NCBI RefSeq assembly: GCF_013294065.1
Contig: NZ_JABSNM010000002.1
Coordinates: forward strand, 62,001 to 126,000
Length of the DNA stretch: 64,000 nt
Reading direction: 5' to 3'
Origin: Sphaerotilus uruguayifluvii
GTDB taxonomy: Bacteria > Pseudomonadota > Gammaproteobacteria > Burkholderiales > Burkholderiaceae_C
Under the pieces are notes generated by a model. The model made no database searches, had not been told where the DNA came from, and saw only the letters and a list, made by a program, of their open reading frames with translations. The stretch's first letter is position 1; each line of letters opens with the position of its first letter. Positions 1 to 24,641 of the stretch are shown here, in pieces. Position numbers and translations under genes: made by a program.

Positions 1-249
1 CAGGTCGGGCCGGTGGGTCTGGGGACATCGCAGCTCATCTGCCTCACGGCGGACGCTACGGTGCCAGGCGCAGTCGCCTTCGAGCCCCCGCTGCGCCAGG
101 CGTTCGGCGCCGTGGCGGTGACATGGGACAGGCCTGTGACGACGTTCAAGTTCGCAGGGACCGGAGGAGACCTTCCAGAGTTCACGGCAGCCAACGGCTC
201 CGGACAGATCGGTGGACTGAAGATGACGTTCTTGGAGCAGTGGTCATGA
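1..249 (+). CDS. Phage tail-tip-region protein, 5' end missing
   Basis: This is the C-terminal 82 residues of a protein whose start lies before the window; the frame is open from base 1. The visible part has no motif I recognise. It ends in TGA inside an ATGA overlap with the next tail gene, so the two are translationally coupled. Its position just upstream of the tail-tip cluster suggests a structural or assembly protein of the phage tail. Confidence 0.55.
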   Translation, partial: QVGPVGLGTSQLICLTADATVPGAVAFEPPLRQAFGAVAVTWDRPVTTFKFAGTGGDLPEFTAANGSGQIGGLKMTFLEQWS

Positions 250-854
250 TCGCGATGACGCCGGAAGAGACGGCGCTGCTGTCGAGCGGGACGCTGGGCG
301 TGGCTGCGCTGATCGAGCTGGACTTTGCCGCGCCCATTGGCACCCAGCGCTACACGTCCTGGTCGAGCGACATCGTGTTCGGCGGACAGAGCTACAAGGG
401 CATCGGGCACATCCTCGCCCTGCCGGATGTCAAGTACAGCGCCGAGCCCAACAACGACTCGCACACGCTGGCGATCTGCTCTGCAGACCTGTCGGTGCTG
501 TCCTTAGCTCTGGGCCCGGCCAACACCTATGTCGGCAGGAGGGCGCGCCTCTACACGATCTTCATCCAGACGGACGGCGTGGCGCTCTCGGTGCGTCGCC
601 TCTACTTCACCGGCGTGATGGAGCCCGTGTCCATCGCCGAGGATGACGACGGTGCGGGCACGACCACCGGTCGCATCGAGCTGCCGCTGCGCCGGCTCGG
701 ATTGGCGCGATCCCGGCACGCCGAAGGCTGGCGGGCCACCCATGCGCAGCAGCAGATCGACTACCCCGGAGACATGGGACTCAGCGGCATGGACAAGATG
801 CTCAAGTCCCAGGTCTGGTACAGCAAGGAATACCAGCGTGCAAGCCAAGGATGA
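246..854 (+). CDS. Phage tail-tip/baseplate protein (DUF2163-like)
   Basis: A 202-residue protein starting at the ATG that overlaps the previous stop (ATGA). Beta-rich sequence, with Trp-Ser-Ser and Gly-Gly-Gln segments near residues 40-50. The C-terminal part ends with a Trp-Tyr-Ser-Lys segment before the stop. Size and position, directly before an NlpC/P60-like protein and a J-like tail protein, match the tail-tip protein often annotated DUF2163 or a hypothetical tail protein in siphophages and gene transfer agents. A much longer reading frame extends upstream, but the ATG at 246 is supported by the coupling. The family assignment rests on context and general appearance. Confidence 0.55.
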   Translation: MIAMTPEETALLSSGTLGVAALIELDFAAPIGTQRYTSWSSDIVFGGQSYKGIGHILALPDVKYSAEPNNDSHTLAICSADLSVLSLALGPANTYVGRRARLYTIFIQTDGVALSVRRLYFTGVMEPVSIAEDDDGAGTTTGRIELPLRRLGLARSRHAEGWRATHAQQQIDYPGDMGLSGMDKMLKSQVWYSKEYQRASQG

Positions 855-1302
855 CCACATCGACCCGAGACACGACGATCGAGTCCGGATCCAGCTGCTC
901 GACTTCGTGACCAGCTGGGCTGCTCGCCCCACGTCCTTCGACTGGGGCGATGCCAACTGCACGCACTTCGCCGGCGCCTGGGTAGGGCGCATCGAAGGCG
1001 TCAGCCCGCTGCGCCGTGTCGAGTACACCCCGTCAGCCCTGGCCGCCGCGCGTTACTGCGATCGCCATGGCGGTCTGGCCGGTGCGGTCAGTAACGCGCT
1101 GGCGCGCGATCCGATCGATGTCGCGCAGGCCCGCGTTGGTGATGTTGTCCTGATCCCGCGCGAGTCACGGGTCGGCAGTGTGGTCGGCCTGGTCGGCATC
1201 TGCGCAGGAAGCCTCGTGATCGTGCGCGCAGGTGATTCGGTCACGATGCTGCACATCCGCTTGGCCACCAAGGCATGGAGAGTGAGATGCGCCGTCGCCT
1301 GA
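838..1302 (+). CDS. DUF6950/NlpC-P60-like phage protein
   Basis: A 154-residue protein. The likely start is GTG at 838, overlapping the previous gene by 17 bp; the frame is open further upstream but that part is shadow sequence. Near residue 38 it carries a W-G-D-A-N-C-T-H-F-A segment, with an aromatic-Gly followed by a Cys as in the catalytic Cys region of small NlpC/P60-like tail proteins (DUF6950). The following region has the G-D-V-V-L-I pattern typical of the second half of that fold. In siphophages this gene lies just before the J-like protein and is thought to act in tail-tip assembly or cell-wall penetration. The family call is by motif and position. Confidence 0.6.
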   Translation: MQAKDDHIDPRHDDRVRIQLLDFVTSWAARPTSFDWGDANCTHFAGAWVGRIEGVSPLRRVEYTPSALAAARYCDRHGGLAGAVSNALARDPIDVAQARVGDVVLIPRESRVGSVVGLVGICAGSLVIVRAGDSVTMLHIRLATKAWRVRCAVA

Positions 1303-4300
1303 GGTCGCTGAGACACGGTGCCATCGCGCTGGCGGCTGCGATGGCACTGGGAGGTGCGGCCCCGGCTCGTGCAGATCCCGTCACGATCGTCGTGGTCGCT
1401 GCACAGGCGCTGGGCGCGGCTGGCGTCATTGCGGCGGCAACGGCGACGTACATCGCTCTGGCTGCTACCGTGGTCGGCGGTGTCATGGCACGCCGCAAGG
1501 CCAAGCGTGCCGCCGCCGAATCCCGGGCGGCAGGGGCTGCGGCGTTGCAAGACCGAAGCGTCACGCTGATGACGGCGGAGCCCGAACCGAAGATCGTCTA
1601 CGGGCGGTGCACCATCGGGGGCTGGGTGATCGACAAGATGACCTCCTCCAAGACCTGGATGGACGACAAGGGGATCACGCGAACGAAGCCCGATGCCTAT
1701 CAGCATGTGGTCATCGGGCTGACCTGTCACGAGGTGCACGCCATCCACGACGTGTTCATGTACGGCGAGTGGCTGGGGGTCAATGGGGCCAATGGATGGG
1801 TCAATGGCGGCCCGGCCGATGCGCCGTATGGCAAGCCCCACAACGTCGTGGGCGTATCTGCCGTGACGTTCACCAACGGGACGGCCACCCTGCCGGCTGC
1901 CGAGAATGGCTACGCCATCTCACGGATCATCTCCATTTCCAGGCGACTGGGCGGGCGCGATGGGGATGAGGTGTACGGCGGGGCAGCAGCGTTTAGCGGA
2001 TCTACCGTCACCGGCGGTCCGGCCAGCGGCCTGTGGAACGTCAACTATGAGGTCACCAAGATGATCTCGTCGCTGCGGGTCGAGTTCCACACCGGATCGC
2101 CTGATCAGGTGGCCAGCGCATGGCTCAAGTCGGTCGCCCCGGGGTACTGGACTGATGCGCATCGGCTGAGGGGCATCGCCTACGCGGTCATCACCTTCGA
2201 CCTGGATGATGGCCGCCATCAGGGTATTCCTGGCGATCTGACCTTCGACGTATCGGGGCGCCGGGTATTGGACCCTCGCACTGGCCTTACAGCCTGGTCG
2301 CGCAATGCAGCGCTTTGTGCAGGCGACTGGATGATGCAGCGCTGGGGTCTGTCGCTGAATCAGGATGATATGCGTGACCTGAAGGGCTTGGCCGACATCT
2401 GCGATCAGCAGGTGTCCCTGACCGTCGGAACGACGACCACTCTCGGCCCGCGCTACACCGTCGACGGCGCTTTGGGGGTCAATGCCGATCGGGCGGCGAC
2501 CCTCGCGGATCTGACAGAGGCCATGGGAGGATTCGCATCGCAAGGGGCGCAATGGGGCCTGCATGCTGGAGCGTGGACAGCTCCGGTGCTCGACATCGTC
2601 GAGGACGACCTCGCAGCCCCGGTGCGCGTGGTCAGGTCGTCCAGTGCGCTCGATGACAGATTCAACGCTGCCCGTGGCACCTATGTGCCCGAGCGCACGA
2701 CCCAGCCCACAGACTGCGATCCGTACATCAACACCGCATTCGTCGCTGCAGACGGGCAGCGCGAGTGGTCCGACTTCACGTTCCCGTTCACGAACCACAA
2801 GGCGCGTGCGCGCAACCTGTTGAGGCAGTTCGTCGAGCAGGTTCGGGCGGGCCTGATGCTCCAGGTCGTCGGGAAAATGAGGCTCTGGCCTCTGGAAGTC
2901 GGCGACCGCGTGACTGTCACCTATGCCCGGCTGGGGCTGGCTGCTGACACCTTCCGGGTGATCGACTGGAGCTGGTCGCCTGGATCGTGGGTCATGCTGA
3001 CCCTGCAGCGCGACATCGCGGCCTCATACGATGACGCCGATGCCAGCTCGGCCGATCCTGCTCCGGCGACCCGACTGCCCAATCCGGGCTTGGTCGACGT
3101 GCCCAGCGAGCTCCAGGCGACCAGCGGATCAGCGCAGCTGCAGAGACTGGGCGACGGAACCATTATCCCGCGCGTGCTCGTGTCCTGGAAGTCGGCGGCA
3201 TCGATCTACATGAGCGATCCTGGCGCGCGAATCGCGATTCGATGGAGGAACCACTCGGATCCCGTCTGGACGGAAATCGTTGTCTCCGGAAACTCGACAT
3301 CGGCATACCTGGAAGGCGTCGCAGACAAAGCACTGATCATCATCAGCGTGCAGTTTCGGAACTCGTTCGGTGCGGTGTCTCCGTGGATCTCAACACCCCA
3401 CAAGGTCATTGGCAAGAGCGGTGCGCCGACGGCACCTACAGCGTTGGCGGTCACAGAAACGATGTCGGGGCAGCGCCTGTTCCAGGTCACGCATGTCCAG
3501 GATCTTGACCATGCGGGCTATGTCATCCGCTACAGCACCAACACGGCGGCCACCTACGATCAGATGACACAGGTCGCGGCAATGTGGTCTGGCGATGCTC
3601 TGACTGGCCAGTCTGCTCTGCCTGCGGACGGGACCTATCGGTTCGGCTGTGTTGCGTATGACGGTAGCGGCAACACCTCGGGCGCGGTCTATGTGGTGGC
3701 GACACTCAAGGCCGTGAGCGAGATGGCGGCGGGGGGCGACAACCTGGTGCAGACCGGCTTCCCGAAACAGGCTGGGCAGCAGACGTTCTGGTCGGCTCCG
3801 GTCGTGGCTGTATCGCCTGCCGGGTCGACGGCGTGGCCATGCGCGATCGAGGTGACGCAGCGCGACACGGTCGAGAACCAGGCGGGGTTCCCGATCTCGG
3901 CGGGCGATTCAATCTACGTCGAGGCGGACGCGACGACCTGGCGCACGCCAGTGCAACTCCAGGTCGGCCTGCTCGTGCGCAAGTCGGACGGATCGCTGGG
4001 ATTCCTGGACGGGTCCTACGGTGCGCCAACAAAAGCCGGCGGAACAGGGTGGACGCACCTTTCCGGCAAGATCGTCGTCCCGCCAGGAGGGTGGATCATG
4101 GCGTGGCCGTGGGTCCAGCTCGATACGCCGAACGGCACGCCCCAGCCCGGAGCCTGGGTCAGCAACATCATGATGACCCGCTCGCAGCTCGGTGCGACCA
4201 AGGGCGCCGACTGGGCGACGAATGTCGTTGGCAGGCCAGCGAACATCGCTGGTCTGACGGGCGGAGAGCGGATACGGAATGACCAGCTGCCCAGCGGTGC

Positions 4301-5327
4301 GAACGTCCTGTTCGACTCGGATTTCACCGTTGGCGTCGACACAAAGGCGTGGACACTCGGCAACAATGTGGCGGCGAACATCGACCAGATCGGGATCAAT
4401 CTGTCGCAGCAATGGACGATGGCGGGCGGCGTCGGGCCATCGACGAATACCCTCTATGTGCATCAGCAGGGGCGCACAGCAAGCAATGCAGACTATATCG
4501 AGGTCTCAAGCCAGCCGTTCGCGGTAGATCCTGCCAAGCTCTACTGCGCCAGTGCCCACACGGGAGCCCATCGGTGCAAGGTGGCGGCATTCATGTACTT
4601 TTTCGACAGCGCGAATGCGGTCGTCGGTCATTCGTACAACAACGGCCAGACCGTTGAAAACGATGAGGCCACCAACGGAGACTCAAATCTTGGTGCGTCG
4701 GCATGGAAGCGCTGCTTTTCGATCGCCCAGCCGCCCTCTACCGCGAAGCATGCCCGACTGTACCTGCGCAAATACAACACCAAGCCCGGGCAGGTGGATT
4801 CGTGGATGTTTGCGGCGCGCGCCCAAGCGGAAGAAGTGGGGGCTGCGGCAGATGGTCCAGCGCCGTGGACGATCGGGCCGGGAGCGGCCAAGTTTGGGGC
4901 CAACATTTATGGCCGAGCGGCGACAGATGACATTGCGGACAGCGCCGCAACCGATGTTGTTGCTATCTCGATCAACAACGTCCAGATTCCTCTGTCACAG
5001 ATCGATCTTGCAAGATTCGTCTTGCCTGCCGCGAGTCGCATCAGAAGGGTACTGGTCTCACTGGACTGCAGTGCCTACCGAGTCAATACAAACGAGGTCT
5101 GTCGAGCCTTGTACGCCTTGAACATCGCAAATGATCAGGGCACTGTGGTCGCGACAAGCCAGTATAGGGCCACTGACGTGTTCACGTCGTCACCTGCGAT
5201 CATGTCGGCTCGCATGTCTTTTGAGGTTCCTGCAGGCATGCAGATCGCCGTTTTTTCCCAAGGCATTCCGTCTCAGGGTCAAGTGGCTGTTTCTGGATCG
5301 ATGATCGTGGAGGTCATCAAGCTGTGA
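1287..5327 (+). CDS. Phage tail tip / host-specificity protein J-like
   Basis: A 1346-residue protein. I place the start at ATG 1287 because GGAGAG lies 4 bases upstream; ATG 1275 adds four residues. Residues 1-75 contain an Arg-rich start, a hydrophobic stretch and a second hydrophobic helix followed by a basic Ala-rich segment. This is common in J-like proteins, which carry a hydrophobic N-terminal region. Residues about 85-570 are the tail-hub part, with an R-V-I-D-W-S-W-S-P-G segment. Residues about 600-800 look like fibronectin-III-type repeats, and the C-terminal 500 residues look like carbohydrate-binding or receptor-binding modules. J-like proteins sit at the tail tip and decide host range. 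The C-terminal codons are less GC-rich than the host genes, a usual sign of phage DNA. Confidence 0.75.
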   Translation: MRRRLRSLRHGAIALAAAMALGGAAPARADPVTIVVVAAQALGAAGVIAAATATYIALAATVVGGVMARRKAKRAAAESRAAGAAALQDRSVTLMTAEPEPKIVYGRCTIGGWVIDKMTSSKTWMDDKGITRTKPDAYQHVVIGLTCHEVHAIHDVFMYGEWLGVNGANGWVNGGPADAPYGKPHNVVGVSAVTFTNGTATLPAAENGYAISRIISISRRLGGRDGDEVYGGAAAFSGSTVTGGPASGLWNVNYEVTKMISSLRVEFHTGSPDQVASAWLKSVAPGYWTDAHRLRGIAYAVITFDLDDGRHQGIPGDLTFDVSGRRVLDPRTGLTAWSRNAALCAGDWMMQRWGLSLNQDDMRDLKGLADICDQQVSLTVGTTTTLGPRYTVDGALGVNADRAATLADLTEAMGGFASQGAQWGLHAGAWTAPVLDIVEDDLAAPVRVVRSSSALDDRFNAARGTYVPERTTQPTDCDPYINTAFVAADGQREWSDFTFPFTNHKARARNLLRQFVEQVRAGLMLQVVGKMRLWPLEVGDRVTVTYARLGLAADTFRVIDWSWSPGSWVMLTLQRDIAASYDDADASSADPAPATRLPNPGLVDVPSELQATSGSAQLQRLGDGTIIPRVLVSWKSAASIYMSDPGARIAIRWRNHSDPVWTEIVVSGNSTSAYLEGVADKALIIISVQFRNSFGAVSPWISTPHKVIGKSGAPTAPTALAVTETMSGQRLFQVTHVQDLDHAGYVIRYSTNTAATYDQMTQVAAMWSGDALTGQSALPADGTYRFGCVAYDGSGNTSGAVYVVATLKAVSEMAAGGDNLVQTGFPKQAGQQTFWSAPVVAVSPAGSTAWPCAIEVTQRDTVENQAGFPISAGDSIYVEADATTWRTPVQLQVGLLVRKSDGSLGFLDGSYGAPTKAGGTGWTHLSGKIVVPPGGWIMAWPWVQLDTPNGTPQPGAWVSNIMMTRSQLGATKGADWATNVVGRPANIAGLTGGERIRNDQLPSGANVLFDSDFTVGVDTKAWTLGNNVAANIDQIGINLSQQWTMAGGVGPSTNTLYVHQQGRTASNADYIEVSSQPFAVDPAKLYCASAHTGAHRCKVAAFMYFFDSANAVVGHSYNNGQTVENDEATNGDSNLGASAWKRCFSIAQPPSTAKHARLYLRKYNTKPGQVDSWMFAARAQAEEVGAAADGPAPWTIGPGAAKFGANIYGRAATDDIADSAATDVVAISINNVQIPLSQIDLARFVLPAASRIRRVLVSLDCSAYRVNTNEVCRALYALNIANDQGTVVATSQYRATDVFTSSPAIMSARMSFEVPAGMQIAVFSQGIPSQGQVAVSGSMIVEVIKL

Positions 5328-5842
5328 GCATTTGGAGTTTCTACAACGAATCTGGATCCATCTGTCCGAATCATTATTCAGGGCCAGATGACTACCTTGA
5401 GGCCAATACTCCGAAAGGCATGCGGCCTATCGCCGGAGCATATGACTGTGATCGATGCAAGGTAGTGCACGTCGATGATGGGATGGGGGGTGAGGTCACG
5501 CCTGTCGTGATCTCTTGTAAGCCTCCTCGACCTGCTGATTCAGAGTTCGAGGTATGGGAGTGGTCGGAATCTCTCGACGACTGGGAACCTCAGCCAACTC
5601 GGGCCGGCCTGGCTCGCCAGCTCAGATCAGCACGCAACCAGGCACTCTTGGCGACTGATGCAGCTGTGCAGGGAGGCATTGAGCAACTCTTGGTGCGCAT
5701 TGCTGTGCGCTTAGGGGTTCCTGTCGAGCGAGGGCTTGCAGGACTGATCGACTACCGGCAACGCCTTCGTGACGCCCCTTCCAGACCTGATTTCCTGGCG
5801 CTGCAACCGTCTGACTTGGCACCACCGGCTGGCACTGATTAA
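5324..5842 (+). CDS. Phage tail-fibre assembly/chaperone-like protein
   Basis: A 172-residue protein with a GTG start overlapping the stop of the J-like gene (GTGA). The C-terminal half has the pattern R-x-x-R-N-x-x-L-L-x-x-T-D, followed about 40 residues later by Y-R-Q-x-L-R-D. This resembles the C-terminal domain of tail-fibre assembly chaperones of tailed phages. The N-terminal 90 residues have a C-D-R-C pair and no family I recognise. It is the last gene before the phage end. Base composition is lower in GC than in the host genes to the right. Confidence 0.55.
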   Translation: MSIWSFYNESGSICPNHYSGPDDYLEANTPKGMRPIAGAYDCDRCKVVHVDDGMGGEVTPVVISCKPPRPADSEFEVWEWSESLDDWEPQPTRAGLARQLRSARNQALLATDAAVQGGIEQLLVRIAVRLGVPVERGLAGLIDYRQRLRDAPSRPDFLALQPSDLAPPAGTD

Positions 5843-5851
5843 CGCGAGGCC

Positions 5852-5892
5852 GTGTCTCAAAGCGCGTGATCCGGTGTCTCAAAGCGCGCGAT
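5852..5892 (+). repeat. Two tandem 19-bp repeats at the phage right end (putative transposase-binding sites)
   Basis: GTGTCTCAAAGCGCGTGAT at 5852-5870 and the same sequence with one change (T to C at the 16th base) at 5874-5892 are spaced exactly 22 bp apart. Only 8 bp (ending TACA) separate the second copy from the dmpO junction. Mu has adjacent MuA sites of about 22 bp at its right end, also within the last tens of base pairs. The match is in layout, not in sequence. Confidence 0.6.
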
Positions 5893-5900
5893 TTCGTACA

Positions 5901-5993
5901 CCAGCCGATGTAGAGCAGCTGCTGGCCGCGGTAGTGGTCGGCGCTGTCCTTCATGTCGCCGTGGTAGTCGGGGCGGATCGCCTTGACGCTCAT
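5901..5993 (-). pseudogene. dmpO: Truncated phenol hydroxylase P4 subunit (dmpO 5' fragment)
   Basis: Codons 1-31 of dmpO are intact, beginning M-S-V-K-A-I-R and ending G-Q-Q-L-L-Y-I-G-W. Family members continue at this point with a D-H-H-L-M-F-C-A-P-like segment. Here the reading frame instead runs into phage end sequence. P4 (about 118 residues) is a small subunit of the multicomponent phenol hydroxylase. The missing 3' part and dmpP (P5, the FAD/2Fe-2S reductase) should lie on the far side of the prophage. The gene is 46 bp downstream of dmpN, as expected for the operon. Confidence 0.88.
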
Positions 5994-6039: not shown

Positions 6040-7629
6040 TCAGGCGGCCGGTCCGTGCAGGCTGGCCGGGCGGCCGGTCCATTCGGCCCAGTGGCGCGCG
6101 TCGGCATGGGTGTCGAAGTCGCCGCCGTCCACGCCCGGTTCGATGCCCATGTAGCGCAGCGCCGCCACATGCGGGTTGAAGTCCGGTGCGCCGGGGTCGC
6201 TGTCCGGGTGGAACTGCGTGCCCTGGTAGATCTGGTGCACCGGCAGATGGGCATGCACATACTTCTCCGGCTCGCGGCGGAAGATGTCGCGGCAGCCGTC
6301 GGAGCAGCAGTGGAAGGTCTCGCCGAGGTATTTCTCCTCGCGGTGGCAGATCTGCGTCGGGTCGCCCGGCTCGGTGAACAGCATCGGCCACTGGCAGACC
6401 TGGCAGAGCTGCGGCAGCGTGCCGTTGACGAAGGGTCGGCCCTCGGCGGCCAGGCGTGCCCAGTGCTCGTAGCGCGGCCGGTAGAGGCGGTCGAAGCTGT
6501 CCGGGTACTTGGCCGACAGCCAGTCCATCTCCTCGGCCGAGGGCAGCCACACCGGGAAGCCCGCCGCGTGGCGGTACTGGTAGAAGGTGCTCCAGAGCTG
6601 GTGGCTGGCGTGCGCCTTCTCCTCGACGGTGACCTCCCAGTGCGCCGGCATGCGGATGCCGTAGCGCGCCAGATCCCTGAAGAGCGCGCCGCCGTTCTGC
6701 TCGAAGTAGATCTCCCAGGCCTCGTGCCAGCTCATCACCCGCTTCGGGAGCATGTAGTCCATCATCGCCGCCACCAGCGTCAGCAGCCGGTAGCCGCGCC
6801 AGAACCACTTGTCGATCCAGCCCTGCACGATGGGCACGTTGGCCGGATCCTGCTCGAGCAGGAACTTGATCACCTCGATGCCCAGCGTCATGTGGCGCGC
6901 CTCGTCGCTCTGCGCGCTGAAGCCGAAGCTCACCGTCGAGAGGTCGCCGTTGTAGGCCGCGCCCGACATCCACGGCATGAACACCAGATTGGTCAGCACG
7001 TACTCGAAGGAGAAGCTGATCGCGACGATGAACTCGAACGGCCCGGCGCTGATCGCGTCCTCGAAGAAGGACTTCGGGATCGACAGGTACCAGGTGCGGT
7101 CGAACTGGTGCGGGAACTCCGCCATCCCGGTGAAGAAGCGGTTGTAGTGCGACAGCGCGTGGATCTGGGTCTGCGCGTGGCGCAGCTCGTCGATCGACTG
7201 CATCTGCGCGGCGATGCGCGCGCCGGTGCCCGGCAGCTCGCGCCCGATCATCGCGAAGCCGCGGTGCGCGGTGTATTCCAGCCCGATGACGCCGTTGACG
7301 AAGAGCTTGAGCGCCTGGATGTAGCGCGCGTCGCTGACGTTGAACTGGCCGTTGTTCTGCTGGAAGGCGTCGATGATGGCGTAGAGCTTGCGCTCCTTCT
7401 CGCCCTGGTATTTCCAGTAGGCGTCCATCGTCAGCCGGAACGGGTCTTCCCAGCCGCTCCAGTCGTGGATGCGGATGCCCTCGAAGGCGGTCAGCGGGTA
7501 GACCGCCTCGGGCGGCTGGTAGCTCGGCGTCCAGCCCAGGTCCTGGGTCAGCAGCGCGTGGCTTTCCTTCAGGCCCAGCTTGCGGGCGGGGGCGGCGGCC
7601 GGGGTGGCGGGGGCGACGGTGGCGGTCAT
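6040..7629 (-). CDS. dmpN: Phenol hydroxylase P3, oxygenase alpha subunit (di-iron)
   Basis: A 529-residue large subunit of the soluble di-iron phenol hydroxylase, which hydroxylates phenol and methylphenols to catechols in the cytoplasm. The two iron-binding helix motifs are present: E118, then D-E-L-R-H with E148 and H151, then E209, then D-E-A-R-H with E243 and H246. A C-terminal TRASH/YHS-like region with Cys residues (C-Q-V-C near 440) is also seen, as in the family. The start is ATG 7629, overlapping the dmpM stop (ATGA) with GGAAG 6 bases upstream; ATG 7641 is possible but lacks this. The usual length is about 517. It should be non-functional in the cell if the downstream P4/P5 genes are not expressed past the prophage. 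Confidence 0.95.
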   Translation of the reverse strand: MTATVAPATPAAAPARKLGLKESHALLTQDLGWTPSYQPPEAVYPLTAFEGIRIHDWSGWEDPFRLTMDAYWKYQGEKERKLYAIIDAFQQNNGQFNVSDARYIQALKLFVNGVIGLEYTAHRGFAMIGRELPGTGARIAAQMQSIDELRHAQTQIHALSHYNRFFTGMAEFPHQFDRTWYLSIPKSFFEDAISAGPFEFIVAISFSFEYVLTNLVFMPWMSGAAYNGDLSTVSFGFSAQSDEARHMTLGIEVIKFLLEQDPANVPIVQGWIDKWFWRGYRLLTLVAAMMDYMLPKRVMSWHEAWEIYFEQNGGALFRDLARYGIRMPAHWEVTVEEKAHASHQLWSTFYQYRHAAGFPVWLPSAEEMDWLSAKYPDSFDRLYRPRYEHWARLAAEGRPFVNGTLPQLCQVCQWPMLFTEPGDPTQICHREEKYLGETFHCCSDGCRDIFRREPEKYVHAHLPVHQIYQGTQFHPDSDPGAPDFNPHVAALRYMGIEPGVDGGDFDTHADARHWAEWTGRPASLHGPAA

Positions 7630-7925
7630 GCGTTCTTCCATTCGAGCGTGAAGCGGTCCTCGGTCTCGTCGACCTCGCCGGAGAGGGAAATCAGGTTGAG
7701 CTGCATCTCGCGCAGGTCGTAGTCGCGGCCGATCTGCTCCTCGATCGACTCGCGCCGGATCACCAGCACGCCGGGCGCGTTGATCTTGACCATGCCGGGG
7801 TACTCGAGCACCTCGGCGTGCGGGTTGTCGGCGCGGATCGCCTCGACGATCGGCAGCGTGTCGTGGTTGGCCTGCAGCGCGATGAAGACCGGCGCGCGGG
7901 CGGTGGGGGGGGCGAGCGTGTCCAT
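7626..7925 (-). CDS. dmpM: Phenol hydroxylase P2, effector (coupling) protein
   Basis: A 99-residue protein matching the MmoB/DmpM effector family (usually about 90). It includes the conserved P-x-A-E-V-L-E-Y-P-G segment (residues 35-45) and the L-I-S-L-S-G-E-V-D-E segment near the C-terminus. It binds the oxygenase without a cofactor and tunes substrate access and turnover. It is preceded by dmpL (21-bp gap) and translationally coupled to dmpN. The extra N-terminal residues are Ala/Pro-rich and probably disordered. Confidence 0.93.
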   Translation of the reverse strand: MDTLAPPTARAPVFIALQANHDTLPIVEAIRADNPHAEVLEYPGMVKINAPGVLVIRRESIEEQIGRDYDLREMQLNLISLSGEVDETEDRFTLEWKNA

Positions 7926-7946: not shown

Positions 7947-8960
7947 TCAGCGGGCGTCCGTCGTCAGGCCCAGGCGGGCCAGCCGGGTCTGCAGGGCGTC
8001 TTCGGCCTGGCGCAGCGCGGCGTCTCCGGCCGCCTCGCCCAGCACCCGGCGCGCCAGCGGGCGCAGCGCGGCGGTGAAGGCGCGGCGCCAGGCGTCGGCC
8101 CAGTCGCGCAGCAGCGTGCGGTTGGACTCGCTCTCGGCAGCCATCACCTTGACGATCGCGTCGACCCAGCGCGCCGATTCCTCGTGCCAGCGCAGCGGAA
8201 AGTCCAGCAGCATCGCCATCACCGCGGCGTCGCCGCCCGCACCGCTCCAGGCCGGCTCGAAGCGGCGCAGCACCAGCGCGTCGACCAGCGCGTCCTGCAC
8301 CAGCGACTGCGCCACCAGCACCTCGATCGGGTCGCGGCGCACGAACAGGTTCTCGATCTCGCGGCGCAGGTCCTGCCAGGCCGCGTCCTCCAGCCAGGCG
8401 GTGCGCGCGGCCTTCAGGCTGGCGCCGGTCTGGCCGTCGAGCAGCAGGCCGATGCGCGAGAGATGCTGCGCCAGCCCGAGCCGGTCCATCATGCCCATCG
8501 CCGCGGCCTGGGTCAGCGCGGTGCCGTAGCCGTAGGCGGCGACCAGCCCGAGGCTGGTGTTGGCGCCCCACTCGACATGGCGCAGCGGCAGCAGCCCCAG
8601 GATCACGCCCTGGCGTGCCTCGTCGCCGAGCTGGCGCAGCCAGTCGCGCTCGCGCACCAGCTCGATCTGGCGCTCGGCCGATTCCTGCTGGCGGGCGCGC
8701 GCGATGGTCCAGCTGCCGTAGTAGTGCTGGCGCGGATCCTTCAGCGCGTACCAGTCGCGCATCACGATGGCGGTGCGGCGGGTGTCGTAGATCTCGCGCT
8801 CCGGATCCCAGAGCGGCTTGTAGTGGTGGTTGACCTCCGACTGGAGGTCATAGGTGCCCTCCTGGTAGCGGCTGGCCGGCTTGTCGCCGAAGCGGCGGGC
8901 GATGTGGCCAAAGGTGTGGCGCAGCGGCTTGACGCTCTGCACCCGGATCTCGACGGTCAT
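7947..8960 (-). CDS. dmpL: Phenol hydroxylase P1, oxygenase beta subunit
   Basis: A 337-residue protein of the di-iron monooxygenase beta-subunit family, close to the usual 331. The start is ATG 8960, overlapping the dmpK stop (ATGA). The N-terminal R-H-T-F-G-H-I-A-R-R-F-G-D-K-P-A-S-R-Y-Q segment and the N-H-H-Y-K-P-L-W-D-P motif are typical. It lacks the iron ligands and forms the (alpha-beta-gamma)2 oxygenase with DmpN and DmpO. Confidence 0.94.
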   Translation of the reverse strand: MTVEIRVQSVKPLRHTFGHIARRFGDKPASRYQEGTYDLQSEVNHHYKPLWDPEREIYDTRRTAIVMRDWYALKDPRQHYYGSWTIARARQQESAERQIELVRERDWLRQLGDEARQGVILGLLPLRHVEWGANTSLGLVAAYGYGTALTQAAAMGMMDRLGLAQHLSRIGLLLDGQTGASLKAARTAWLEDAAWQDLRREIENLFVRRDPIEVLVAQSLVQDALVDALVLRRFEPAWSGAGGDAAVMAMLLDFPLRWHEESARWVDAIVKVMAAESESNRTLLRDWADAWRRAFTAALRPLARRVLGEAAGDAALRQAEDALQTRLARLGLTTDAR

Positions 8961-9166
8961 GGGCGTGTCTCCTCGCGGTGGTCGTTCAGGCTCCAGGTCC
9001 GGACGCGCTGCTCGGCGCAGAACGCGGTGAAAGCCGGCTCGGGCAGGATCAGCTCGACGGCCAGCGCCGGGTCGCCGATCGAGAACGCGAACTCGACGAA
9101 GCCGTCGGGTCGGCGCTCGAGCACCCGCACCCAGCGGGGCAGGTCGGGGGCGGTCGGATCAGGCAT
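8957..9166 (-). CDS. dmpK: Phenol hydroxylase P0, assembly protein
   Basis: A 69-residue protein that begins M-P-D-P-T-A-P-D-L-P-R-W-V-R-V. It contains the F-V-E-F-x-F-x-I-G-D-P segment and C-terminal F-C-A-E-Q-R-V that mark the DmpK family. P0 is thought to help load iron or assemble the oxygenase and is not part of the final enzyme. It is the first gene of the operon, lying about 80 bp downstream of the expected start of a sigma-54 transcript. A longer frame exists upstream, but ATG 9166 fits the family length and the operon. Confidence 0.85.
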   Translation of the reverse strand: MPDPTAPDLPRWVRVLERRPDGFVEFAFSIGDPALAVELILPEPAFTAFCAEQRVRTWSLNDHREETRP

Positions 9167-9256
9167 CGGGGGTCTCCAGGGTTCTGGTCGTGTCGTCTCG
9201 GACGCCGGGCGGGGGGCTGTCGAAGCTGATGCAGCGCGCCCGGCGGAGTCTCCTGG

Positions 9257-12442: not shown

Positions 12443-13477
12443 TCAGGGGGCCGGCGCCCAGCCCAGCGGCGCCAGCACCAGCCGGCTGGCGGCGGGCGCG
12501 CGCGAGCAGCAGGGCGTGAAGCGGCGCTCGACCTGGTGCTCGTGCGCGCCGTAGACCAGGTCGCGGTGATCGGCCGGGCCGTCGAGGTGCTGCACGCAGC
12601 ACTGGCCGCAGATGCCCTGCTCGCAGCTCAGCGCCACCGCGATGCCGGCGGCCTGCAGCACCTGAGCGACGCTCTCGTGCGGGGCCACCGCCAGGCGCTG
12701 GCCGCTCGGCGCCCAGTCGATCTCGAAGCTGCCGGACGCGATCCGGTCGCCCGGCTCCAGCGTCGGCACCGGTGCCGGGGCGGCGAAATGCTCGGTGACG
12801 ACCCGGTCGGCGCTCCAGCCGGCGCGTGTCGCGGCCGCGCGCACCGCCGCCATGAAGCCGGCCGGGCCGCAGGTCCAGATCCGGGTGCCGGCCGGCTGCG
12901 CGGCGATCAGCCGGTCGAGCGCCTCCGTGCCGGCCGGCACCTCGTCGTCGGCGAGCACCTGCACCGCCTGCGCCCAGGGCGCCTCCTGCAGCCGGCGCGC
13001 GAAGGGCAGCCGGGCGCGGCTGCGTACCCGCACCTGCAGCGTGAAGCTGCGGTCCTGCGCCCACAGCGTCTCGGCCATCGCCAGCAGCGGCGTCAGTCCG
13101 ATGCCGCCGGCCAGCAGCAGGGCGTGCGGCGCGGGCTGCAGCGCGAAGAGGTTGCGCGGCGCGCTGGCGTCGATGCGGTCGCCCGGCTGCAGCCGCGCGT
13201 GCAGCCAGGCCGAGCCGCCGCGGCCGGCGTGTTCGTGCTGCACCGCGATCAGGTAGCGGTCGCGCTCGTCCGGCGGGTTGCACAGCGAGTAGCTGCGCCG
13301 GCGCGGCGCCTCGCCCGGCCGGGCCGGTGGCAGGTGCAGGTCGATGTGCGCGCCGGCGTCGAAGGCGGGCAGCGGCCGGTCGTCGGTCGCGCGCAGCTCG
13401 AAGGCGACGATGCCGTCGCAGAGCGGCTCGCGCCGGCCGACGCGCAGCGTCAGCGTCTGCGCTGGATCGAGGGGCAT
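12443..13477 (-). CDS. Oxygenase reductase, VanB-like (FMN/NAD/2Fe-2S)
   Basis: A 344-residue reductase of the phthalate dioxygenase reductase family. The order is the FMN domain (R-R-S-Y-S-L-C-N-P-P near 60), the NAD domain (L-L-A-G-G-I-G-L-T-P and T-C-G-P-A-G-F-M) and a C-terminal plant-type ferredoxin (C-E-Q-G-I-C-G-Q-C-C). It passes electrons from NADH to the Rieske oxygenase encoded immediately downstream. The start is ATG 13477, the frame continuing upstream as shadow. It is slightly longer than VanB (about 317). Confidence 0.88.
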   Translation of the reverse strand: MPLDPAQTLTLRVGRREPLCDGIVAFELRATDDRPLPAFDAGAHIDLHLPPARPGEAPRRRSYSLCNPPDERDRYLIAVQHEHAGRGGSAWLHARLQPGDRIDASAPRNLFALQPAPHALLLAGGIGLTPLLAMAETLWAQDRSFTLQVRVRSRARLPFARRLQEAPWAQAVQVLADDEVPAGTEALDRLIAAQPAGTRIWTCGPAGFMAAVRAAATRAGWSADRVVTEHFAAPAPVPTLEPGDRIASGSFEIDWAPSGQRLAVAPHESVAQVLQAAGIAVALSCEQGICGQCCVQHLDGPADHRDLVYGAHEHQVERRFTPCCSRAPAASRLVLAPLGWAPAP

Positions 13478-13524
13478 GGGCTTGTCTCCGTCAGGGTCCC
13501 GGTGTTCCGGTGTGTCCGTCCTTC

Positions 13525-13540
13525 TGCAAGCCGCGGGCCA
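13525..13540 (-). promoter_or_regulatory. Sigma-54 (-24/-12) promoter for the Rieske oxygenase operon
   Basis: The minus strand reads TGGCCCGCGGCTTGCA, against the consensus TGGCACG-N4-TTGCW: one mismatch (A to C) and correct spacing. It lies 48 bp upstream of the reductase ATG. A sigma-54 activator is encoded divergently from 13679, so the activator and its target share this 201-bp gap. Confidence 0.72.
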
Positions 13541-13611
13541 GCGGGACGAGTCGGGCCGCCGCTGTCGATTTCCGGACATGAGGAGCAGTGCGGATGGCCG
13601 CGGCGCCGGCC

Positions 13612-13656
13612 GCGTTTCATGATCTGGCGCAGCCGCGGCCCGCCGGCGTTTCATGA
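13612..13656. promoter_or_regulatory. Pair of direct repeats, possible enhancer (UAS) sites
   Basis: GCGTTTCATGA occurs at 13612-13622 and again at 13646-13656, 34 bp apart (about three helical turns). They lie 72-116 bp upstream of the -24 element at 13540. That is where NtrC/XylR-family enhancer sites are usually found. Each copy contains the palindrome TCATGA. Confidence 0.5.
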
Positions 13657-15405
13657 ATCCAAGCAAGGCCCCCCGACGATGATCCGAGCCATCACGCCCA
13701 GCGACGACACCCGCGCGCTGGCGGCCCATCTGCACTTCGCGCCGGAGTCCGGCCACATCCGGCTGTTCGACCAGCGCATGCTGCTGATGCATGCCGACGC
13801 GCTGGCCGGGCTGCGCCGCGAGCTGGTGGCGCGGCTGGGGCTGGCGCCGGCCCGCGAGCTGCTGATGCGCATGGGCTGGCAGCAGGGTTTCGAGGACGGC
13901 CAGCGGGTGCGCCAGCGCATGGACGCGCGCACGCCGCAGGCGGTGGCGCAGGCGCTGGCGATGGGGCCGCGCCTGCGCGAGATCGAGGGCTTCGTGCGCC
14001 ACCAGCCGGTCGAGGCCATGCAGCTCGACGTCGAGCACGGCCGCTTCTGGGGCGACTTCCTGTGGCACGACAGCTGGGAGGCGCAGGCGCATCTGGCGCA
14101 CTGCGGCCCGGGCAGCGAGCCGGCCTGCTGGACGGTGACCGGCTATGCCGACGGCTACAGCACCGCGGTGACCGGCGTGCCGATCCACTGGCGCGAGGTC
14201 GAGTGCGTCGCGACGGGCCATGCCTGCTGCCGGGTCGAGGGCCGCACGCTGGCCGACTGGCAGGCGCATGACGCCGAGGCCGATCCCGGCGCCTACCTGC
14301 GCGCCGACAGCTTCGTCAGCGCGCCGGACACGACCGGCGCGGCTGCGCCCGGGCTGGCGGGCTTCGTCGGCGCCTCGGCCGGCTTCAACGCGGTCGCGCA
14401 TCTGGTGCGCAAGGTCGCGCCGACCGACTCGACCGTGCTGTTCCGCGGCGAGAGCGGCGTCGGCAAGGAATGCTTCGCGCGCGCGCTGCACGGGGTGAGC
14501 CCGCGTGCGGCCGGCCCCTTCATCGCGGTGAACTGCGCGGCCATTCCGCCCGATCTGGTCGAGGCCGAGCTGTTCGGCGTCGAGCGCGGCGCCTACACCG
14601 GCGCCGATCGCCCGCGCCCGGGCCGCTTCGAGCGCGCGCACGGCGGCACGCTCTTTCTCGACGAGGTCTCCAGCCTGGCGCTGGCGGCGCAGGGCAAGCT
14701 GCTGCGCGCGCTGCAGGAGCGCGAATTCGAGCGCGTCGGCGGCACCGAGCTGCGCCGGGTGGACGTGCGCATCGTCGCCGCGGCCAATGTCGACCTGCGC
14801 GAGGAGGTGGCGGCCGGGCGCTTCCGCCGCGACCTGTTCTACCGCCTCAACGTCTTCCCGATCGAGATCCCGCCGCTGCGCCAGCGCCCGGAGGACATCG
14901 CGCTGCTGGTGGCGCATTTCCTGGCCCGCAGCAGCCGGCGCTTCGGCAAGACGCTGCAGGGCCTGAGCCCGCAGGCCGCCGGCGCGCTGCACGACTACGA
15001 CTGGCCCGGCAACGTGCGCGAGCTGGAGAACATGATCGAGCGCGGCGTGATCCTGGCCGACGAGGGCGGCGTGATCGAGGTGCAGCACCTCTTCGCCGGC
15101 GGCGAGCGGCTGCGCGGGCGCATCTGGCGGCTCGGCCGCGGCGGCGCGCTGGAGCAGCCGCCGGCGCCGGGCCCGGCCGAGCCGCCGGTCGATCCGCGCG
15201 CGCGCCGGCTGGTCGACCAGCTGCTGGAGACGCTGCCGTCCTTCGAAGCGATCGAGCAGCTGCTGATCGACCGCGCGCTGCAGCGCTGCGAGGGCAATGT
15301 CTCGGCGGCGGCGCGGCTGCTGCAGGTCGGCCGCGGCCAGATGGACTACCGGCTGAAGAAGCGCGCCGACGCCGCCGGCGCGGCTCCTGCGTCCGCGCCC
15401 GCGCC

Positions 15406-17175
<1,770 letters not shown>

Positions 17176-18662: not shown

Positions 18663-19448
18663 TCAGGGCAGCCCGCGCCGACGCCCGGCGTCGAGCATCA
18701 GCGTCGAGCCGGTCAGCACGTCGGCCTCGGGGTCGAGCAGCAGCGCCACCGCCCAGGCGACCTGCGCCGGCGTGGTGAGCTGGCCGATGCTCGAATCGGC
18801 GCGCATGGCGTCGAGCACCGCCTCCGGCGTCGTGCCCTGCAGCGCAGCGCGGTCGGCGACGACGCGGTGCAGCCGCTCGGTGTCGGCCGGGCCCGGCGCC
18901 AGCGTGTGCGTGGTGATGCCGCGCGCGCCGTGGTGCAGCCCGAGCTGGCGCATGACGTTGAAGAGCGCCGCATTGGCCACGCCGGCCGCCGCCGCGTAGG
19001 CGGTCGGCTCCAGGCCGTAGTGGCCGGCGATGGCCACCACGCGCGAGCCGCGCACCAGCCGGTGCTCGACCGCGCGCGTCAGCCGCAGCAGGCCGCCGAC
19101 CTTGATGTTGACCGCATCGACCATTGCCGAGGTCGGCACGCTGGCGATGCCGCCGGCGACCGCCACGCCGGGGCCGTGCACCACCAGCCGCACCGGCGCA
19201 CCGTCCAGCGCGTGCTGCGCGTCGACCGCGGCGCGGATCGCCTCGACCGAAGCGTCGTCCGCGATGTCGGCCGCGCACGGCAGCAGCCGCGGGCCGAAGC
19301 GCTCGGCCAGACCGGCCAGGCTGTTCGTGCTGCGCGCCACCGCCAGCACCGTCAGGCCGCGCCCGACCAGCCGCTCGACGATCGCCTGGCCGAAGGCGCC
19401 GGTGGCGCCGACGACCACCGCCAGCTCGCGCTGCGTGCCGGCGTTCAT
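18663..19448 (-). CDS. Atypical short-chain dehydrogenase/reductase-like protein
   Basis: A 261-residue SDR-fold protein. The nucleotide-binding start [13 protein letters not shown] is present near residue 12. The catalytic Y-x-x-x-K is Y-A-A-A-A, so the Lys is missing, and no Ser is found at the usual place about 13 residues before the Tyr (the segment is A-I-A-G-H-Y-G). It may bind a nucleotide but is unlikely to be a normal dehydrogenase. It is the only unexpected member of the meta operon, translationally coupled to dmpG (ATGA). A role in the ring-cleavage pathway is inferred from position only. Confidence 0.75.
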
Positions 19449-20512
19449 GCGCCCACCTTGGCGCGGACCACGTCCTTGAGCAGGCCGCGCTCCTTGGCCA
19501 TCGTCATCGCGGTGTCCTCGATCATGTCCTCCTGGCCGGAGATCATCTTCTTGCGGCCCAGCTCGACGAGGATGTCGCGCGCGGGCACGCCGAAGCGCTT
19601 CTCGGCCCGCTTGGCATGCAGCAGGAAGGTCGAGTACACGCCCGCGAAGCCCAGCGTCAGCGAGTCGCGGTCGACGCGCACGATGCGCTCGGCCATCATC
19701 GGCAGGATGATGTCTTCGGCCACGTCCATCAGCTTGAAGAGATCGACGCCGGTCTCGATGCCCATGCGCTCGCACACCGCCAGGAAGACCTCCAGCGGCG
19801 TGTTGCCGGCGCCCGCGCCCAGACCGCCGACCGAGCCGTCGATGCGGCTGGCGCCGGCGGCGATCGCGGCGATCGAGTTGCTGATGCCCAGACCCAGGTT
19901 GTGGTGGCCGTGGAAGCCGATCTCGGTCTCGGGCTTGAGCACCTCGCGCAGCGCGGTGACGGCCGCCGTCACGTCCTCGGGCAGCATGTAGCCGGCCGAG
20001 TCGGTGATGTAGACGGTCTGCGCGCCGTAGCTTTCCATCTTCAGCGCCTGCTGCGCCAGCCCTTCGGGGCTGTTCAGGTGCGCCATCATCAGGAAGCCGG
20101 TGGTGTCCATGCCGAGCTTGCGCGCGAAGGCGATGTGCTGCGGCGAGGTGTCGGCCTCGGTGCAGTGCGTCGCCACGTGGACGCTGCGGGCGCCGCAATC
20201 AAAGGCGCTCTGCAGCTCGCGCATCGTGCCCAGGCCCGGAATCAGCAGCACGCTGACCTTGGCCTGCTTCATCAGCGGGCAGACCGCGCTCAGGTACTCC
20301 TCGTTCTTCGCCAGCGCGAAGCCGTGCTGCAGCGAGTTGCCGCCCAGGCCGGCGCCGTGGGTGACCTGGATCAGCGGCACGCCGGCCGCGTCCAGCGCGG
20401 TGGCGACCTTGACCATCTCGTCGATCGAGATCTGCTCGCGCCTGGCGTGCATGCCGTCGCGCAGGCACATGTCATGCAGCACGACCTTGCGGCCCTTCAG
20501 GTTCGTCGTCAT
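19445..20512 (-). CDS. dmpG: 4-hydroxy-2-oxovalerate aldolase
   Basis: A 355-residue DRE-TIM-type aldolase. It cleaves 4-hydroxy-2-oxovalerate to pyruvate and acetaldehyde at the end of the meta pathway. The metal-binding motif [12 protein letters not shown] is at residues 12-23, and H-G-H-H-N-L-G is near 205. A G-A-G-A-G-N-T segment is also present. The family length is about 345. It forms a substrate-channelling complex with DmpF, encoded 21 bp upstream. ATG 20512 has AAGGAG upstream. Confidence 0.95.
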
Positions 20513-20533
20513 GTCGGTCTACTCCTTCGGGCG

Positions 20534-21469
20534 TCAGGCGACCAGCGCCGGGGCAGTGGTCACGGTCGGCTTGAGCGTGATCTTTCCGGCGAGGATCTCC
20601 TCGGCGAACATCTCGGCGGTGCGGCAGGCGGCGGCGGTCATGATGTCGAGGTTGCCGGCGTAGGTCGGCAGGTAGTCGCCCAGGCCCTTCACTTCCATGA
20701 AGACCGCGACGCGACGGCCGTCGAACAGCGGGCCGTTGACCAGCCGGTAGCCGGGCACGTACTTCTGCACTTCCTCGATCATGGCCAGCACCGAGTCGAT
20801 GATCCTGGCCTGGTCCGGCTCGTCTTCGGTCAGGCAGTTGATGGTGTTGCGCATGATCATCGGCGGCTCGGCCGGGTTGATGATCGCGAGCGCCTTGCCC
20901 TTCCTGGCGCCACCGACACGCTCGATCGCGCTCGAGGTCGTGTAGGTGAACTCGTCGAGGTTGGCGCGCGTGCCGGCACCGACCGACTTCGACGCCAGGC
21001 TGGCGACGATCTCGCCGTACTCGACCGTCTGCACGCGGCTGATGGCGTGGATGATCGGAATCGTCGCCTGACCCGCGCACGAGATCATGTTGACGTTCAT
21101 CTCGACCTTGTCGGCGTGTTCCTTCAGGTTCACCGGCGGCACGCACAGCGGGCCGATGGCCGCGGGCGTCAGGTCGATCATCAGCACGCCGAGCTCGTTG
21201 AGCTTGCGCGAGTTCTCGGCGTGCACATAGGCGCTGGTCGCGTCGAAGGCGATCTGGATGCCGTCTTCGAGAACATGTGGCAGCAGGCCGTCCACGCCCA
21301 GATGGGTCGTCTTCAGGCCCATGTCGCGGGCGCGCTGCAGGCCTTCCGATTCGGGGTCGATGCCGACCATCCAGACGGGTTCCAGCACCGGGCTGCGCTG
21401 GATCTTGTAGATCAGGTCGGTGCCGATGTTGCCCGAGCCGATCAGCGCGCACTTGATCTTCTTGCTCAC
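20534..21469 (-). CDS. dmpF: Acetaldehyde dehydrogenase (acylating)
   Basis: A 311-residue enzyme converting acetaldehyde and CoA to acetyl-CoA with NAD. The dinucleotide motif G-S-G-N-I-G-T-D is at residue 11, and the catalytic Cys131 lies in [12 protein letters not shown]. The start is GTG 21469 with AAGGAA 6 bases upstream. It is paired with DmpG, as in the Pseudomonas dmp operon. Confidence 0.95.
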
Positions 21470-21502
21470 GTTGATTCCTTGAAGAATGGATTCCTGGCCG
21501 CT

Positions 21503-22321
21503 TCAGCCGAAGCGCACCGCGACGCTGCCGAGGTCCTGGAAGCGCGCGCAGACGAAGTCGCCCGGCTTCACCGCGATGGCCTCGGTGATGCCGCCGCTCA
21601 TGACGAAGCTGCCGGCCGGCAGCTCGCGGCCCAGCTCGGCCAGCACGCGCACCAGCAGCGCCACGCCGTCGGCCGGGTGGCCCATCACCGCGGCCGAGGC
21701 GCCCATCGCCACCGGCTCGCCGTTCTTCTCCAGCACGACGCCGAGCGTGTCGAGCGCCAGCGCCTCCGGCTCCAGCGCCCGCCCGCCCGTCACGTAGCGC
21801 GCCGACGAGCTGTTGTCGGCCACCACGCTGGGCAGGTCGAACTTGAAGCCCGAGAAGCGCGAGTCGATCACCTCGATGGCCGGCACGACGAAGTCGGTCG
21901 CGGCCAGCACGTCGGCGCGAGAGCAGTCGCGCCCGCCCAGCGCCGACTTCAGCACGAAGGCCACCTCGCACTCGACGCGCGGGTGCACCAGGTCATCGGT
22001 CGCGATGACGCTGCCCTCGGGGCGCGCCATGTCGGCCAGCAGGAAGCCGACGGTGGGCACGTCGACACCCATCTGGATCATCTTGGCCTGCGAGGTCAGC
22101 CCGGCCTTCCAGCCGATCTGGCGGCGGCCCTCCTTCAGCCAGCGCTCCAGCAGCCCGAGCTGCACGGCGTAGCCATCGCCCAGCGTCATGCCGGGGAAGT
22201 CCTCGGTCAGCTTCGGGATGGCGGTGGCGCCCTTCTGTGCCGCCTCGATGCGGTCGGTGAGCGCCTGCACGTCGGCGGGATCGAGCGTGGTGCGCATGTC
22301 GGTGGCGGGGGTGAGGTTCAC
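21503..22321 (-). CDS. dmpH: 4-oxalocrotonate decarboxylase
   Basis: A 272-residue member of the hydratase/decarboxylase family. It has the decarboxylase-type segment I-G-W-K-A-G-L-T-S-Q-A-K-M-I-Q-M-G-V (near residue 70) and metal-binding acidic positions around V-E-C-E-V-A-F and A-I-E-V-I-D-S-R. It turns 2-oxohex-3-enedioate into 2-oxopent-4-enoate, in complex with DmpE. I chose GTG 22321, which overlaps the dmpE stop (GTGA) and has GGAAAGG upstream. ATG 22297 would give 264 residues, the usual length, but has no clear ribosome site. Confidence 0.9.
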   Translation of the reverse strand: MNLTPATDMRTTLDPADVQALTDRIEAAQKGATAIPKLTEDFPGMTLGDGYAVQLGLLERWLKEGRRQIGWKAGLTSQAKMIQMGVDVPTVGFLLADMARPEGSVIATDDLVHPRVECEVAFVLKSALGGRDCSRADVLAATDFVVPAIEVIDSRFSGFKFDLPSVVADNSSSARYVTGGRALEPEALALDTLGVVLEKNGEPVAMGASAAVMGHPADGVALLVRVLAELGRELPAGSFVMSGGITEAIAVKPGDFVCARFQDLGSVAVRFG

Positions 22322-23115
22322 AGTGCGGCCTTTCCATGAAAACGCGCCCGGCAGGTGCCCAGGCCGCCGATGGTGCAGACCAGCTCGTCGCCGCCCGTCA
22401 CCGCCACCAGCGGCGACTGCGAGCCCGACAGGATCACCTCGCCGGCACGGAAGGGCAGGCCCAGCCGCCCCAGCGTGTTGGCCAGCCAGACGACGGCATT
22501 GATCGGCGAGCCCTGCACCGCCGCGCCCACGCTGGTCGAGTGCAGCGCGCCATTGCGCTGCAGCACCATGCCGGCCAGCGCGGCGTCGAACTTCTTCAGG
22601 CTCATCCGGGCGTCACCCAGCACGAAGACGCCGCAGGAGGCGTTGTCCGCCACCGTGTCCTGGATCCTGATCTTCCAGTCGCGGATGCGGCTGTCGACGA
22701 TCTCGAAGCACGGCGAGACAAAGGCGGTGGCGCGGATCACGTCAGTGGCGGTGATGCCCGGGCCGACCAGATCGCGCTCCAGCACGAAGGCGAGTTCCGC
22801 CTCGGCCTTGGGCTGGATCAGGCCGTCCAGGCTGATGCCGTCCGATTCGCTGCAGACCATGCCCGAGGTCAGCTGGCCGAAGTCCGGCTCGAAGACGCCG
22901 AGGAAGTCCTGCACCGGCTTGCTGGTCACGCCGATCTTCTTGCCGACGAGGGTCTCGCCGGCCTGCAGGCGCCGTGCAATAAAGCGCGACTGGATCTGGT
23001 AGGCGTCCTCGACGCGGATGTCGGGGAAGCGCTCGAGCAAGGGCGCCAGCGTGCGGCGCTCGCGCCAGGCGTCGAACAGCTCGTCGCCGCAGGCGGTGAT
23101 CTGGTCAGGTTGCAT
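22318..23115 (-). CDS. dmpE: 2-oxopent-4-enoate hydratase
   Basis: A 265-residue hydratase that adds water to 2-oxopent-4-enoate to give 4-hydroxy-2-oxovalerate. Signature segments are V-G-K-K-I-G-V-T-S-K-P-V-Q and F-E-P-D-F-G-Q-L-T-S-G-M, which separate it from the DmpH paralogue next to it. ATG 23115 is preceded by an in-frame GTG at 23118. The gene is 13 bp after dmpC and coupled to dmpH. Confidence 0.93.
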   Translation of the reverse strand: MQPDQITACGDELFDAWRERRTLAPLLERFPDIRVEDAYQIQSRFIARRLQAGETLVGKKIGVTSKPVQDFLGVFEPDFGQLTSGMVCSESDGISLDGLIQPKAEAELAFVLERDLVGPGITATDVIRATAFVSPCFEIVDSRIRDWKIRIQDTVADNASCGVFVLGDARMSLKKFDAALAGMVLQRNGALHSTSVGAAVQGSPINAVVWLANTLGRLGLPFRAGEVILSGSQSPLVAVTGGDELVCTIGGLGTCRARFHGKAAL

Positions 23116-23128
23116 CACGGCCGGCCCT

Positions 23129-24592: not shown

Positions 24593-24641
24593 GTCGTCGG
24601 TCCTGCAGGGGTTCTTCTCGTGGGCAGCTCGCGGGCCAGCT

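Follow-up and report, generated by a model that had tools for sequence, protein, structure and literature searches.

A Mu-like prophage with a 4-bp target duplication splits dmpO of a phenol hydroxylase operon

Results

The genome of Sphaerotilus uruguayifluvii carries a prophage within the gene dmpO of its dmpKLMNOP operon, and there is little doubt that it is a temperate Mu-like phage, related to D3112, that was inserted there by DDE transposition. The insertion duplicated 4 bp of its target, as is proved by comparison with an uninterrupted allele. That a transposable phage should disrupt an operon is nothing unusual.

The DNA considered here, which I will call the window, is a stretch of 64,000 nucleotides (G000:C2:62001-126000). 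Positions without a prefix are those of the window, and its features are collected in Table 1.

Table 1. Features of the window at the right end of the prophage and in the adjoining operon.
Feature	Position	Strand	Evidence or remark
Right (tail-gene) end of Mu-like prophage, running on leftward out of the window	1..5900	+	
Central tail fibre J-like protein, 1350 aa	1275..5327	+	phrog_5616, E 2.3e-49; phrog_31, E 6.9e-34
Last phage ORF, 172 aa	5324..5842	+	without Pfam family
Chimeric ORF: 31 DmpO codons and 92 codons antisense to phage DNA	5622..5993	-	
Inner copy of 15-bp repeat GTGTCTCAAAGCGCG, presumed transposase-binding site	5852..5866	+	sequence
Outer exact copy of GTGTCTCAAAGCGCG, 22 bp from the inner	5874..5888	+	sequence
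Terminal ACA of prophage	5898..5900	+	sequence
Right copy of 4-bp target duplication, CCAG	5901..5904	.	
dmpO 5' fragment, codons 1-31	5901..5993	-	sequence; comparison with G005
dmpN-like, phenol hydroxylase subunit	6040..7641	-	PF02332, E 6.5e-69; YHS domain
dmpM-like regulatory subunit	7626..7925	-	PF02406, E 2.1e-29
dmpL-like hydroxylase subunit	7947..8960	-	PF02332, E 2.8e-53
dmpK-like subunit (stretch searched; listed frame up to 9376)	8957..9229	-	PF06099, E 9.7e-24

The Split Gene

At the right end of the prophage, dmpO reads on the minus strand from the ATG at 5993 to the TGG at 5901 (MSVKAIRPDYHGDMKDSADHYRGQQLLYIGW, 31 codons). A preliminary description of this DNA had claimed a junction exact to the base after 31 codons, and so it is: base 5900 is the last of the phage, which ends in ...CGTACA, and 5901-5993 are dmpO. 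The 2-bp CA that it reported on the phage side is present, as the last two bases of what is properly a terminal triplet, ACA. It had also called the fusion in frame. Thirty-one codons are indeed followed by phage, but the term is meaningless here, since what the chimera enters is antisense phage DNA: past Trp31 it no longer resembles DmpO, and its stop is at 5622, giving a product of 123 aa in which 92 phage-coded residues are antisense to the last phage ORF.

The 3' part of dmpO followed by dmpP had been predicted at the far phage end, together with a short target duplication, and all three are there. The remainder of dmpO, from residue 31 onward, lies at C2:30310-30580 on the minus strand and adjoins the left phage terminus; in this piece 17 phage-coded residues, with no Met among them, stand ahead of Trp31. 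Next to it is dmpP (C2:29218-30285), with Fer2, FAD- and NAD-binding domains. It is separated from dmpKLMN, as had been supposed, since it lies beyond the prophage and more than 37 kb from dmpN. CCAG (plus strand) occurs at both phage ends, the left copy at C2:30577-30580, and these 4 bp comprise the Trp31 codon and the base preceding it. A full-length dmpO elsewhere in the genome was looked for and not found: PF04663 has one match, on the 3' piece, and the joined DmpO sequence, used as query, hits the two pieces and nothing else. The junction is not a chance match.

An uninterrupted dmpO is found in another genome of the same genus (G005), with 99% protein identity over residues 1-120 of the joined sequence. 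It is preceded by dmpN sequence (the locus, L034, covers dmpN only in part), and the frame after it is as long as dmpP, 355 aa. In a BLASTN comparison with this locus, where DNA identity is about 98%, the right flank of the prophage matches positions 1-1593 (98.2%) and the left flank positions 1590-2952 (97.9%), so that the two flanks overlap by exactly 4 bp, the target duplication. In the proposed sequence of events, the transposase made staggered cuts, 4 bp apart, in the two strands of the target and linked the 3' ends of the phage to them, after which gap filling would have left CCAG on both sides.

With the joined DmpO as query, 18 of 60 genomes match at E <= 1e-10, the window's own genome included, and matches were found in all 12 of the other genus members searched, covering nearly the whole query in 11 and cut by a contig edge in G006. 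The transposase, sought at E <= 1e-30, is found in none of these 12, and the phage is therefore specific to this genome among those searched.

The Prophage and Its Ends

The prophage occupies G000:C2:30581-67900 (37,320 bp) and looks complete. It has the properties of the broad Mu-like group: a gpA-like transposase with a gpB-like ATPase partner; TG...CA termini (TGT at C2:30581 and ACA at 5898-5900); a genome within about 36-39 kb that includes Gam, a Mor/late activator, and head and tail modules; and a short target duplication, the 4-bp CCAG. I place it only in this broad group, because a duplication of exactly 4 bp against the G005 allele accords with neither the Mu type (5 bp) nor the B3 type (6 bp).

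Only part of the phage ORFs were submitted for comparison with PHROGs, and 24 of these 30 found matches. They include a repressor, the transposase (phrog_310, E 2.8e-104), a DNA transposition protein (phrog_296, E 6.3e-31), regulators, Gam, a late activator, terminase, portal, minor head protein, head protease, major head protein, adaptor, tape measure, distal tail protein and J. The six of 30 without a PHROG match include one frame that lies opposite the transposase gene on the other strand. The transposase has a single match in the genome, and its sequence contains the stretches HADGW, TDS and GIAEN, which resemble a DDE triad.

The core of the repeat GTGTCTCAAAGCGCG, seen twice near the right terminus, is found again near the left end of the phage, and these repeats are presumed to be transposase-binding sites. 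While the outer TGTGGGG is retained, the phage differs in its inner end motif (TTTGAGACA / TTAAGACA, at window 5852-5888 and at about 595-735 in L008) from most of the relatives with located ends, which have a TTTGGCAC-like motif. The transposase may have diverged in step with the ends.

No stretch with the exact right phage end turned up in a scan of viral contigs. The J protein, sought in 15 genomes or records, matched one, the IMG/VR record G159, which is 100% identical in the two stretches compared. G159 gives no independent junction, because it starts and stops within the phage. PCR for an excised form, put forward in the preliminary description, is unsuited to a phage of this type, because Mu-like prophages are replicated through transposition and precise excision is rare among them.

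Duplication Lengths in Related Elements

Both ends were examined in 24 elements (18 + 6), and a clean duplication was found in 15, eight of 4 bp and seven of 5 bp; comparison with an uninterrupted allele covers the window's own element, and the lengths for the others rest on their end repeats. Twelve of the duplications, six of each length, flank ends defined by an end motif, which was recognized in a ranking that had the repeat as one criterion and so is not fully independent of it. The motif-defined duplications of 4 bp are CCAG in the present phage, GGCA (G152), AGCA (G153), CACT (G154), CCTG (G155) and GGCG (G161), and those of 5 bp are GTGGC (G118), GAGAA (G285), AGCAC (G329), GCGGC (G489), GTGGT (G1018) and CCGGC (G1087). 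Three weaker cases, in which an end was found with the help of the repeat, are CTGA (G209) and ACAT (G382), both of 4 bp, and CACAA (G971), of 5 bp. The motif pair of G382 gave no repeat at first, and a better right end was then located by means of the repeat. G155 and G161 have second left candidates, giving 4 and 3 bp, respectively; those chosen are the ones with the inner TTTGGCAC motif.

An end was not found in eight of the 24 elements (G324, G150, G163, G238, G255, G898, G1073 and G1089), and G160 has both ends and no duplication. In this IMG/VR relative the left phage end occurs twice, at L027:209 and L027:278, 69 bp apart. When end pairs were ranked on TGT/ACA, the repeat and the similarity of the ends, many false pairs came up, and the end motif was used instead. 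A search by shared 7-mers overlooked several ends.

Some relatives were left out, the usual reason being a match close to the end of its contig or a contig of unstated length: five of 14 in one set (G224, G225, G295, G338 and G425), five of 15 in another (G890, which has the same coordinates as G489, and G922, G942, G1001 and G1080) and six of 11 in a third. From a further set, only L027, L029 and L032 were examined; L023 is the present phage and L030 looks like the G154 prophage. A class-wide search made no additions at E <= 1e-60. The loci L020 and L021 have the same coordinates, identity and E-value in two MAGs that carry different taxon labels (Rhodocyclaceae and Methylobacter), and are perhaps one contig binned twice.

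In a transposase tree of 40 rows, a single branch (support 97/95) parts the eight four-base rows from the seven five-base rows. The branch recurs in 97% of 200 bootstrap trees, and none of 500 shuffles equalled it. In a tree of 34 rows, with eight and four labelled rows, the separating branch has support of 91/85. The four-base rows straddle the root, six on one side and two on the other, the two being the weaker G209 and G382; this root is a midpoint, so the order of 4 and 5 bp cannot be read from the tree. Phage Gregale stands at the base of the side with six four-base rows, and JBD93 among the 5-bp rows. G155, with 4 bp, has the same 25 bases at the start of its left end as G1018 and G1087, with 5 bp, and the outer left end alone therefore does not set the stagger.

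Taken together, these results make it likely that there is a group of Mu-like phages, related to D3112 and found in this genome, in Rhodocyclaceae and in further genomes of the order, with transposases that space their cuts by 4 bp instead of 5 or 6, and that a single event on the tree suffices for the change between 4 and 5 bp. If so, the geometry of the transpososome changed within one phage group. G155 could then be compared directly with its sister phages G1018 and G1087, which would place the cause in the transposase and not in the left end. With both lengths on one tree, nature provides a comparison from which to learn what determines the cut spacing of Mu-type transposases. There is also a practical side: searches for repeats of 5 or 6 bp would miss 4-bp elements or misplace their ends.

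The Operon and Its Host

All six subunits of a DmpKLMNOP phenol hydroxylase are represented, K, L, M and N by their Pfam families, O by PF04663 and P by the Fer2, FAD and NAD domains. Genome searches give two matches to PF02332 (dmpL and dmpN); listed by family name, the two Phenol_Hydrox matches belong to this operon, and Phenol_monoox is matched once. The searches turned up no further phenol hydroxylase of the dmp family.

DmpO is the third subunit of the hydroxylase. The lysogen is expected to make DmpK, L, M and N and no intact DmpO, with dmpP severed from the operon promoter and the phenol hydroxylase probably inactive. Neither piece of dmpO can make DmpO, because the right one runs into 92 antisense codons and the left one begins with 17 residues without Met. 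Loss of phenol hydroxylase activity is thus likely, judging from the gene arrangement, since intact DmpO is gone, dmpP is cut off and no second enzyme was found. The host looks like a natural phenol hydroxylase knock-out made by a lysogenic phage, and the presence of dmpN in a genome or metagenome is no proof of phenol oxidation.

The 3' part of dmpO differs from G005 at six of 271 bases, and dmpP, an open frame of 355 aa, at 14 synonymous and five non-synonymous codons of 356; with so few differences, no decay of either is visible. The phage repressor gene (L008:1031-1600, minus strand) points outward to the dmpO 3' part and dmpP, and no terminator-like site was found on its strand between the gene and the phage end, and the prophage may therefore supply the transcript of dmpP. 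When the surroundings of both junctions were scanned for promoters and terminators, nothing stood out from the shuffles.

Genes of a meta-cleavage catechol pathway lie at 19445-25577 on the minus strand as open frames untouched by the prophage: catechol 2,3-dioxygenase, semialdehyde dehydrogenase, acetaldehyde dehydrogenase, aldolase and a hydratase just under the model cut-off. Near the operon, within 12536-17175, are two activators of sigma-54 type. The first-ranked NCBIfam match of the one within the plus-strand frame 12536-15445 is MobR, below cut-off; the other (15406-17175, minus strand) has XylR_N, V4R and Sigma54_activat domains.

Other Explanations

The genome is a draft of 48 contigs, and the junction might for that reason be suspected of being an assembly chimera of a phage contig and the operon. 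This is extremely unlikely: both halves of one gene, exact to the codon, are on the same contig, one at either end of a full-length phage, and neither the TGT/ACA termini nor a short target duplication would be expected from a chimera. Gene-disrupting att sites exist in other phages, and an integrase-type prophage at an att site inside dmpO can be imagined, but the likelihood of this is practically nil given a duplication of only 4 bp and the absence of an integrase among the 24 PHROG-matched ORFs, which offer a DDE-type transposase and an ATPase instead. If insertion by transposition is accepted, the duplication might originally have been of 5 bp, as in Mu and as in seven of the 15 resolved elements, with one base lost later. 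I regard this as very unlikely. Seven further elements have exactly 4 bp (five motif-defined and two weaker), and one branch of the tree parts the two lengths (97/95); independent one-base losses would have to coincide.

Acceptance of the insertion still allows the question of whether the operon works, with the pieces of dmpO, or a substitute subunit, assembling into the enzyme and dmpP read from the phage repressor transcript. The outward repressor gene with no terminator-like site found before the phage end speaks for this, as does the open dmpP frame with its 14 synonymous and five non-synonymous differences from G005. It is nonetheless unlikely, in view of the 17 phage-coded residues without Met before Trp31 in the left piece, the 92 unrelated residues in the right piece and the lack of a second copy of the hydroxylase families in the genome search. 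An operon inactivated by a transposable phage is the explanation I prefer.

Comparison with Known Systems

The operon has the same subunit families as the known DmpKLMNOP operon, in the same order, K-L-M-N-O-P, with the difference that here the prophage splits O and has P on its far side, more than 37 kb from N.

Among phage records, all 143 matches of the transposase are below 60% identity. First-ranked is Pseudomonas phage Gregale (OR683403.1), a record classed in Casadabanvirus, with 39.9% identity across 84% of the query, too distant for a close relationship with the genus Casadabanvirus (D3112). The gene order of Gregale is nevertheless the same over the 23.4 of 36.6 kb compared: an opposite-strand CI-like repressor, a Ner-like gene, transposase, AAA+ ATPase, Gam, Mor, terminase and head genes. 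D3112-like phages such as JBD93 (NC_030918, Casadabanvirus) share the Mu-like plan, long-tail genes and the TGTGGGG left terminus in a genome of 36.6 kb; the JBD93 transposase is 31.0% identical to that of the present phage. At the ends of D3112-like records, the repeat of BR161b comes to 5 bp only on reading the phage end as ACAG, and CF74a has no repeat. L095 (MK511022), with host DNA on both sides, has no matching repeat at its ends, 2692 and 40169. In each of the three D3112-like records inspected, the base after the terminal ACA is G.

Mu has TG/CA ends, which the present phage shares along with a DDE transposase and its ATPase partner, and B3 is a transposable phage of the same broad plan. 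Within the portions available of the open-access literature covered (PMC8705779, PMC5977238, PMC2628397, PMC5488378, PMC4378225, PMC8541194, PMC10052514 and PMC6379469), no 4-bp duplication is named for a Mu-like phage, though one may be in print elsewhere; the "4 bp" in the available text of PMC10052514 refers to gyrase cleavage. KS10 is described there as without direct repeats (PMC2628397, in part). According to the passages of PMC8705779 covered, the duplication is of 5 bp in Mu and of 6 bp in B3 and Leptospira prophages, as against 4 bp here. The 4-bp footprint of this phage group is thus a modest new variant beside the footprints of 5 and 6 bp described in the papers covered.
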